DNA of 45,124 nt from an uncultured Croceitalea sp. GTDB lineage: Bacteria; Bacteroidota; Bacteroidia; Flavobacteriales; Flavobacteriaceae. Shown here piece after piece: positions 31,572 to 33,002 of the stretch. The position numbers were made by a program, and so were the translations under genes. Under the pieces are notes generated by a model. It was not told the DNA's origin. It did no database searches and worked only from the letters and a program-made list of their open reading frames with translations. How positions within the stretch are numbered: the first letter of the stretch is position 1; each line of letters opens with the position of its first letter. The stretch lies in NCBI GenBank assembly GCA_937926215.1, contig CALEYA010000001.1:1-45124 (forward strand), given 5' to 3'.

Positions 31572-31607
31572 AAAAAGCCCCATTTCCAGTAGAAATGGGG
31601 CTTTTTT
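31572..31607. terminator. Bidirectional intrinsic terminator
   Basis: A stem pairing AAAGCCCCATTT with AAATGGGGCTTT (loop near 31586-31592) has T-rich flanks on both strands. It lies between the metalloprotease gene (+, stop 31556) and the membrane-protein gene (-, stop at 31667) and can serve both. Confidence 0.9.
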
Positions 31608-31666: not shown

Positions 31667-32110
31667 TTATGCCGCCCACCTATTAGTGGCATAAAGTTTA
31701 GAGGCTAACCAAGCGCCCACGACCATCTCTAAGAGACTTAAAGGAAGGGCAATCAAAAGTGTTTTCCAATCAGAAAGGCCCATATTGGCCGTTGCCACCC
31801 AAAAGATGACAAAAACAGTAGACCAGACCACTGTGCCAGCTAAAAGGACAGTTATAGTAGAATTTCCAAAGGTTCTAGCGAACAACCAAAAAATAAATAC
31901 CAAAGCCAAGGTTAGCAACGTATCCCAGAATCCCCAAATGGTAAATATCCCCAAGTCCATTTCGGCTATTCCATCTCTTCCGTCGAAGAAAGATTTTATC
32001 CTAGGTCGTATGAATACAAAGTATCGGAACACTTCAGAGATATTTATCCATATGCTGACTACTAGGGTAATCATCAAAAATTGTTTGGTTGCAAATTTTT
32101 GGTCTAACAT
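31667..32110 (-). CDS. Four-helix membrane protein, unknown
   Basis: I do not assign a family with certainty. The 147-residue product has about four hydrophobic helices: FLMITLVVSIWINISEVFRY, IWGFWDTLLTLALVFIFWLF, ITVLLAGTVVWSTVFVIFWV and LLIALPLSLLEMVVGAWLAS. The only longer polar loop (about 32-52, FIRPRIKSFFDGRDGIAE) follows helix 1. It starts 2 bp after the stop of the sigma-factor gene, so co-transcription and perhaps functional linkage are likely. It does not look like a classical anti-sigma factor, which would have a cytoplasmic zinc-type or RskA-like domain. Confidence 0.8.
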   Translation of the reverse strand: MLDQKFATKQFLMITLVVSIWINISEVFRYFVFIRPRIKSFFDGRDGIAEMDLGIFTIWGFWDTLLTLALVFIFWLFARTFGNSTITVLLAGTVVWSTVFVIFWVATANMGLSDWKTLLIALPLSLLEMVVGAWLASKLYATNRWAA

Positions 32111-32112
32111 CG

Positions 32113-32919
32113 CTATTTAATTACTATCGTTTCGTTTATTTTTTTCATGATGCTATCCGGGGCGGGTATTCCCGGGCTTAAACGGTAAATAACCACTGAT
32201 TTTTCCAAGTCTTCAATCTGATGCACCAAATCAATACTCCTTTGGGTAAACTGGGCAAACCGTAAACCTTTGGCGTTGATGATATTTTGATTGATCAAAA
32301 AATCGATTTTCTTACTGCAACGACATGGATTGTTTGTATTAGCAAGACCACATTTGTTATTTAAGAAGTTTCGAATTTTTTCCCGGGAACGGGATAGTTT
32401 TTTTCTAAAATTGGTTGCTGTAATACCCAGTATTTCAGCACCTTCTTTTCCATTAAATTCTAAAATTTCCGCTAAGATGTAAACCAGCCTATCCGTTGGG
32501 TTTAGACAAAGAAGGAGTCCTTGGGTGCAGCTTACTTTAACCTCTTCCTCCAAAAGGGCAAGTTCACCGGCATTTTGGGCATGGGTTGCTTTGTTTGACT
32601 GGCCCATATCAATGAGGGTTTCATATTCATTAAAAGACCTTGCAAAAACCGCTGCTTTTTTTCCTTTGGAATTGATGAGGTAGTTTGTAGCGACCCGATA
32701 TACCCAGGTTTTGAATCGGCTTTCACCCTTAAACGTGCTCAAACGCGTTACAATTCTAATAAGAATCTCTTGAGTTGCATCCTTGGCGTCCTCAGGAAAT
32801 AAGAGCATTTTAAGGGAAAGGTTATACACTAAATCCTTAACCTCGTGGATGACTCTTTCTAATGCTTCCTTATCACCAGAATTGGCTTTTTTGACCAAGA
32901 TGTTCAGATTCTTATCCAT
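32113..32919 (-). CDS. ECF-type sigma factor with Cys-containing C-terminal extension
   Basis: This 268-residue sigma-70 family protein has region 2 at about 24-90 (YNLSLKMLLFPEDAKDATQE; RFKTWVYRVATNYLIN) and region 4 at about 130-187 (LVYILAEILEFNGKEGAEIL; FRKKLSRSREKIRNFL). An 80-residue extension follows, starting NKCGLANTNNPCRCSKK with Cys190, Cys199 and Cys201. Ordinary ECF factors of 160-200 residues stop after region 4. The extension is a soluble helical segment and could be a metal- or redox-responsive switch or an RNA polymerase contact; this is inference. I have seen the CGL..NPCRC pattern in other long ECF factors. It is transcribed with the membrane protein downstream. The ATG at 32917-32919 is the start. 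Confidence 0.92.
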   Translation of the reverse strand: MDKNLNILVKKANSGDKEALERVIHEVKDLVYNLSLKMLLFPEDAKDATQEILIRIVTRLSTFKGESRFKTWVYRVATNYLINSKGKKAAVFARSFNEYETLIDMGQSNKATHAQNAGELALLEEEVKVSCTQGLLLCLNPTDRLVYILAEILEFNGKEGAEILGITATNFRKKLSRSREKIRNFLNNKCGLANTNNPCRCSKKIDFLINQNIINAKGLRFAQFTQRSIDLVHQIEDLEKSVVIYRLSPGIPAPDSIMKKINETIVIK

Positions 32920-33002
32920 TGTTAGTAATTGGACAGTTATATGGTACTAAGTGTGACAATATAAAGTGAAAAAATGCTCTTGCAATACCTACGAACATCA
33001 TT

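Follow-up and report, generated by a model that had tools for sequence, protein, structure and literature searches.

ECF41 sigma factors are described, in the parts of the source available to us, as recognising promoters with a TGTCACA −35 element, a spacer of 16±1 bp and a CGTC −10 element, as having a single target and as lacking an anti-sigma factor (PMC3426412). CorE carries a CXC motif in its linker and a C-terminal cysteine domain, and both are reported to be essential (available sections of PMC8999054 and PMC3107203), while OrbS has a built-in Fe(II) switch that operates via C-terminal cysteines (excerpts of PMC9023288). For ECF287 and ECF288, whose model members come from Nocardia seriolae and Blautia producta, the available sections of PMC8999054 describe abundant cysteines in a C-terminal extension and do not mention a membrane partner.

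The locus studied here lies in a stretch of 45,124 nucleotides from an uncultured Croceitalea sp. (contig CALEYA010000001.1), which we call the window. Its features are as follows.

32929..32958, minus strand: predicted autoregulatory ECF promoter, TGTCACA-N16-TGTC, with a core conserved in 14/14 loci
32113..32919, minus strand: ECF sigma factor of 268 aa (Pfam; AlphaFold2 fold model, mean pLDDT 90.2)
32506..32529, minus strand: C131-x6-C138 pair at the start of sigma region 4 (comparison of extended with unextended sigma factors)
32113..32352, minus strand: C-terminal extension of the sigma factor, residues 190-268, 79 aa, holding C190, C199 and C201
31667..32110, minus strand: four-helix membrane protein of 147 aa (AlphaFold2), whose gene adjoins the sigma gene in 14/14 loci
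31572..31606, minus strand: terminator-like hairpin of 16 pairs, 3' of the membrane gene (consensus match)

The first gene of the pair encodes an ECF sigma factor. Sigma70_r2 (PF04542) and Sigma70_r4_2 (PF08281) scored above cut-off in Pfam, TIGR02937 gave 69.5 bits against a cut-off of 42.9, and these matches show the arrangement that defines ECF factors, region 2 (at about residues 24-87) and region 4 (at about 134-182) without region 3. The extension that follows begins at C190 with CGLANTNNPCRC, as stated in the original prediction, and is 79 residues long where about 80 had been given. Residues 190-268 had no match in Pfam, including none to a SnoaL-like C-terminal domain of about 100 residues, and the WLPEP linker motif is absent from the sigma sequence. 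The motif CG..N..NPCRC is invariant in the extension across a set of 15 sequences. The fold model is confident to about residue 220 and weak at residues 221-250.

To place the cysteines, we aligned 66 ORFs of 250-305 aa out of the best 80 of 440 relatives; the 14 omitted were 10 over-long ORFs and four loci from which no ORF was recovered (L078, L098, L122 and L141). Among 67 extended sigma factors from several phyla, 66 have all five cysteines (C131, C138, C190, C199 and C201). C138 is found in 66 and each of the others in 67, a full score that for C190, C199 and C201 arises partly by construction, because these three belonged to the filter that selected most of the extended rows; C131 and C138 did not. 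None of 19 unextended ECF sigma factors of the relatives, for which an ORF was obtained from 19 of 21 loci, has a cysteine at position 131 or 138. The core pair thus accompanies the cysteine extension, as would be expected of a shared metal or thiol site, and the pattern suggests that the five cysteines form one such site spanning the sigma core and the extension. The proposal that the extension senses metal or redox state directly is therefore retained in part: the cysteines resemble a direct sensing or metal site, but the putative site comprises five residues, two of which (C131 and C138) lie in the sigma core, so sensing would not be the work of the extension alone.

We then examined the DNA in front of the pair. 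The pattern (T/A/G)GTCAC(A/G)-N16-TGTC precedes the sigma start in all 14 orthologous loci that we found, where the upstream DNA reads TGTCACACT-N14-TGTCTAA or a close variant. The window site (32958-32929) reads TGTCACACT-N14-TGTCCAA and is the only such site in the window. Invariant in the 14 sites are GTCAC, CT, TGTC and the closing AA; the variable positions are the first T (12/14), the A of CACA (13/14) and the T of TCTAA (12/14). The −35 and −10 elements were assigned from this conservation, and the sigma starts of five loci (G043, G033, G606, L069 and L071) were re-chosen by eye. Only 12 bases lie between the −10 TGTC and the sigma ATG (window 32920-32935), and other carriers look similar; a correct promoter call would imply a sigma transcript with little or no leader.

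A genome-wide search covered nine of the 14 carriers, those other than L068-L072. The exact core GTCACACT-N14-TGTC was found at the sigma promoter in 9/9 of these genomes and was absent from 17 of 18 non-carriers. Each carrier searched has one promoter-like exact-core site, always before the sigma operon, which makes the operon its own predicted target; by computation, the single-target arrangement of ECF41 is thus present in 9/9 carriers searched, under a strict pattern and a coverage of 9/14 that could miss diverged targets. The second exact-core match in G001 and the sole one in the non-carrier G041 fit, from their letters, a palindromic repeat, GTCACACTGAGC...GTCGAAGTGTC. This promoter-mimicking repeat or near copies of it occur at G001:C5:4842-4871, G005:C16:6951 and 7107, and G041:C1:407825.

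When two mismatches were allowed in 18 genomes (nine carriers and nine non-carriers), each carrier gave 0-4 matches in addition to its own promoter, a total of 12, each non-carrier gave 0-4, and the backward control gave 0-3 per genome. The numbers match the non-carrier level, and we treated the extra carrier sites as noise and not as further targets. Eight of the 12 were inspected. Six, including both from the window genome, lie inside ORFs of at least 359 aa; one in G539 falls within a 118-aa ORF and precedes a 334-aa ORF by 188 bp; and one in G033 falls within a 245-aa ORF, precedes a 162-aa ORF by 6 bp and may mark a second target. Three of the four other extra sites resemble the palindromic repeat. 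We predict an autoregulated sigma factor with one target operon. This bears out the suggestion that the membrane protein is a target of the sigma factor, in that a conserved promoter-like site precedes the operon and no second convincing one was seen in the nine carriers.

A related site also occurs outside the 14 loci. In 36 of 61 wider-family loci from the best 80 of 440 relatives (omitting 5 pair loci, 8 over-long ORFs and 6 unrecovered ones), GTCACA-N15/16-(C/T)GTC falls within −160 to +50 of the called sigma start; the reversed pattern gave 0, and 179 permuted −35 hexamers gave a mean of 0.02 and a maximum of 1. No such site was found near the start in the remaining 25 of the 61, and six wider-family loci have a GTCACA-type site at −700 to −160. 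The site is absent near the start from the Bacteroidota members among the 61 and from 18 long-extension Bacteroidota loci, so within the Bacteroidota sampled it marks the 14-locus clade.

We consider it probable that the pair is a self-contained, anti-sigma-free ECF switch with the membrane protein as its output. The sigma factor would carry its own regulator, C131/C138 and C190/C199/C201 together making up a single metal or thiol site through which the extension is linked to the core of the protein. A change of state at this site, by gain or loss of metal, oxidation or modification, would render the sigma factor active, and it would then recognise TGTCACA-N16-TGTC, as conservation and the published ECF41 promoter suggest. 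Because the only promoter-like exact core in nine carriers lies before their own operon, the output would be further sigma factor and the co-transcribed four-helix membrane protein, accompanied in 8/14 carriers by a third protein that is Atl-like. For the membrane protein, the likeliest role is that of an effector, acting in transport, membrane protection or efflux of a stressor, rather than that of an inhibitor. By analogy, CorE and OrbS, as far as the available parts of the sources describe them, offer precedents for metal sensing by cysteines of the sigma factor itself (PMC8999054, PMC9023288, PMC3107203).

The second gene lies 2 bp from the first in the window. The ORF and its AlphaFold2 model (mean pLDDT 77.7, from only 6 sequences) agree with the predicted 147-residue, nearly all-membrane protein, with helices at 8-38, 45-81, 85-109 and 115-141. 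Charge counts in 11 sequences place tails of about 10 residues and a short loop on its predicted inner side. The protein, called unknown in the original prediction, belongs to no family that scores above cut-off in Pfam or NCBIfam. Searches of Pfam, NCBIfam, PDB sequences and PADLOC, together with Foldseek and VIA on the model, returned nothing convincing; the best VIA match (Z 7.4, rmsd 5.8) is in the chance range for helical models. The TauE/SafE exporter family (PF01925) was rejected at 14.6 bits against a cut-off of 32.6, and is weakly matched by 3 of 7 members of the membrane-protein group (best E 7e-5).

The original prediction had called for a count of the co-occurrence of the two genes. 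A search that took in the best 80 of 440 relatives showed the membrane gene adjoining 14/14 of the orthologous sigma genes found, at distances of −20 to +11 bp. Five of the loci were added from that best-80 set, all with the membrane gene: L068 (Aquimarina litoralis), L069 (an uncultured Aquimarina), L070 (Cyclobacteriaceae), L071 (Dokdonia) and L072 (Flavobacteriaceae). The nearest named carriers of the pair are Flavobacteriaceae. The 14 sigma factors are one clade in the tree (support 100/100), and the pairing of the two genes is not chance. Among 98 relatives, six genomes have a close sigma ortholog (E < 1e-98), and the membrane gene is adjacent in the same six; a further membrane match, in G088 (E 9e-5), has no sigma gene in the 10.5 kb read. 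In 397 genomes of the family, the membrane profile has matches in eight, seven of them beside a short-extension sigma factor and one, in G542, solo. In 18 genomes of the family the extension profile has 24 matches, namely those seven and 17 long-extension sigma factors, none of which has an adjacent membrane-profile match by coordinates. In the profile searches of family and phylum, only the best 9-12 candidates of each genome were scored. Genomes in which either gene is routinely found without the other had been named as evidence against the pair; we found such separation at the level of the broad families, whereas the orthologous pair stayed together in the loci found.

These data also bear on a possible though unlikely alternative, that the membrane protein acts as an anti-sigma factor of a new type, which tethers the sigma factor through its short cytoplasmic parts or through the sigma extension and frees it on an envelope signal, the cysteines being structural. 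Fixed adjacency, genes that overlap (gap below 0) in 5/14 loci and correlated divergence all favour it, and the order of sigma gene and downstream gene with overlapping starts likewise fits a sigma/anti-sigma pair. Pairwise identity falls to 0.54 for the sigma factor and 0.38 for the membrane protein within the 14, and their distance matrices are correlated (r = 0.765; Mantel, 0 of 10000), as co-inheritance of any operon would also produce. The sigma model, too, resembles the anti-sigma-bound and not the RNA-polymerase-bound form: its compact sigma2-sigma4 arrangement is that of SigW bound to RsiW (5wuq; VIA Z 16.3, rmsd 2.1, 153 aligned; Foldseek TM 0.80 on target), whereas RNA-polymerase-bound SigH chains align to it only with an rmsd near 27. 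As a clue to function, this predicted resting conformation is only suggestive. Against an anti-sigma role, the tails of about 10 residues and the short loop leave little room for the usual anti-sigma domain, and across many phyla the same cysteine sigma family has other proteins next to it, most of them soluble. A class I anti-sigma factor (ZAS or RseA-like) was discarded for the membrane protein, which has no Pfam match and only short tails beyond its four modelled helices. In agreement with the earlier statement that there is no classical anti-sigma gene, none was seen by eye among the listed neighbouring ORFs of the window.

The relatives of the membrane protein that stand alone argue against an anti-sigma role as well. 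They were found in 25 loci (14 class genomes, 9 phylum genomes, G088 and G542), and a simple motif test with one positive control detected no ECF gene in the flanks read, which extended up to about 1.5 kb on each side for 18 loci and over longer stretches for 7. These solo proteins, for example G088:C1:66300-66662, are mostly about 125-145 aa long, and three that were scanned matched no Pfam family.

The window sigma factor belongs to a multi-phylum extended family with the five conserved cysteines. As this family includes Nocardia (L109 and L142) and many Lachnospiraceae members, it is probably of the kind that the available sections of PMC8999054 describe as ECF287 and ECF288. Its extended sigma factors often lie beside soluble SnoaL/DUF4440, SRPBCC, DinB or DUF2461 proteins, and in the window clade the membrane protein occupies the position where the wider family often has a SnoaL-like neighbour. 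Among 59 neighbouring ORFs, the matches (overlapping families; 25 of 45 listed) included SnoaL_2 (14), DUF4440 (11), DUF2461 (6), SnoaL (4), Polyketide_cyc2 (4), DinB (3) and DinB_2 (3). The 59 were picked by eye from 104 candidates, and of the 45 left out, roughly half were downstream ORFs of DUF2461 size and the rest were other ORFs, which makes the counts an unfair sample. The ECF literature searched, which did not include the 2021 ECF re-classification, held no report of the signal of this family.

Some members of the wider family have membrane or clustered neighbours of other kinds. At L052:4467-5694, a related sigma gene with another cysteine spacing (CFTC ... CALINKNGACHQC) overlaps the gene for a 125-aa membrane protein, which we take to be DoxX-like. 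Small membrane proteins with two to three segments by hydropathy adjoin cysteine sigma factors at L090:4858-5175, L093:1956-2273 and L092:3597-3983, one of 105 aa in two Clostridia loci and one of 128 aa in Leptospirales, perhaps the source of the DUF1304 match in the census. None of the neighbours at L052, L090, L092 and L093 proved to be a homologue of the window membrane protein (P0002), the scores being near 0. At L038 and L039, cysteine sigma genes lie within clusters of genes that, by eye, look SRPBCC-, DinB- and SnoaL-like, and the clusters resemble each other in two genera.

It is doubtful that the pair serves metal homeostasis in the manner of CorE, with cysteines that bind a metal, either toxic or scarce, for which the membrane protein is the exporter or importer. 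A cysteine extension with extra cysteines near the sigma core is what CorE has, and OrbS detects Fe(II) by C-terminal cysteines, as given in the available parts of the sources. On the other hand, the cysteine spacing differs from those described there for CorE, CorE2 and OrbS. The window membrane protein lacks both Cys and His, neither residue is conserved across the 14 proteins, the operon showed no gene for metal homeostasis, and the neighbours met most often in the wider family, in what is an unfair sample, are SnoaL, DUF4440, DUF2461, SRPBCC and DinB proteins.

The end of the operon differs between carriers. In the window, the hairpin after the membrane gene suggests a two-gene operon (four terminator-like sites were found in the region, against 2.4 expected). 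In 8/14 operons (G005, G033, G043, G606, G539, L068, L071 and L072), a third gene lies 3' of the membrane gene and encodes an Atl-like protein. The MGMT DNA-binding family (PF01035) reached at best 26.3 bits against a cut-off of 27 in three such proteins, and the profile matched 2kif (E 3e-4) and Atl1 (3gva, E 0.004). The acceptor-cysteine motif of MGMT is PCHRV, and the acceptor cysteine of PCHR is lost in Atl; all 8 third-gene proteins have PFWRV in its place. Across 27 genomes the gene is confined to this operon (5/9 carriers, 0/18 non-carriers). By eye, it is present in the three earliest branches of the sigma tree, and it is missing from L070, G001, G644 and the group of L069, G007 and the window, the branching among which the tree does not resolve. 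As the three earliest branches carry it, the Atl-like gene is probably ancestral and was lost two to four times, including in the lineage of the window.

One speculative extension of the switch, to which we give little credence, is that the five cysteines act as a zinc-thiolate switch responding directly to alkylating or electrophilic compounds that react with thiols, and that the operon protects the cell from them. The sigma factor would drive its own operon only, the membrane protein would keep out or move the compound, and the ancestral operon would add an Atl-like binder of DNA lesions. Ada senses alkylating compounds directly through a zinc-thiolate, and the system would, if this were true, be an ECF counterpart of the adaptive response and a new kind of it.

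Finally, it is very unlikely that this is an ordinary orphan operon of neighbours co-inherited in one flavobacterial clade without functional coupling: all pairs form one clade, which implies one origin and makes the mirror-tree correlation expected, and by eye some flanks are shared beyond the operon (G000/G007 and G033/G539), but adjacency holds in 14/14 loci though sigma identity falls to 54%, in the other five loci compared by eye the flanking genes differ, and the site before the pair is almost invariant across the same divergence.

An unexplained pair is thus narrowed to a circuit of one promoter, one candidate effector and five residues, and the window system points to a large multi-phylum cysteine sigma family. 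The predicted switch would join the promoter logic of ECF41 (TGTCACA, one target, no anti-sigma factor) with cysteine sensing on the sigma factor itself, two features that the accessible parts of the ECF literature searched describe separately.

With CorE and CorE2 (former ECF44, now ECF238) the window system shares the lack of an anti-sigma factor and C-terminal cysteines with extra ones near the sigma2-sigma4 linker, according to the available text of PMC3107203 and PMC8999054. The window sigma has neither the linker CXC nor the CorE-type Cys-rich domain that define that group: CorE has C-X4-C-X2-C-X-C and the linker CXC, whereas the window sigma has C-X6-C and C-X8-C-X-C, and CorE targets copper genes. 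OrbS (ECF243) differs in having four cysteines in a short tail, in being inhibited by Fe(II) and in acting on siderophore genes, as the available excerpts of PMC9023288 state. From ECF41, the window sigma differs in its extension, 79 aa with cysteines as opposed to about 100 aa with a SnoaL-like fold and a WLPEP linker, in its neighbours, a membrane protein and, in other carriers, an Atl-like protein as opposed to COE proteins, and in its predicted −10 element, TGTC as opposed to CGTC (available parts of PMC3426412). The SnoaL-like domain that is fused to the sigma factor in ECF41 is often a separate neighbour in the wider cysteine family. The likeness to ECF41 (Ecf41Bli and SigJ), as far as the same parts of PMC3426412 describe it, lies, for the predicted promoter, in the TGTCACA −35 element, the spacer of about 16 bp and the GTC within the −10 element, (T/A/G)GTCAC(A/G)-N16 fitting the ECF41 −35 element and spacer in 14/14 loci, and extends to the single predicted target, the lack of an anti-sigma factor and the presence of a C-terminal extension.
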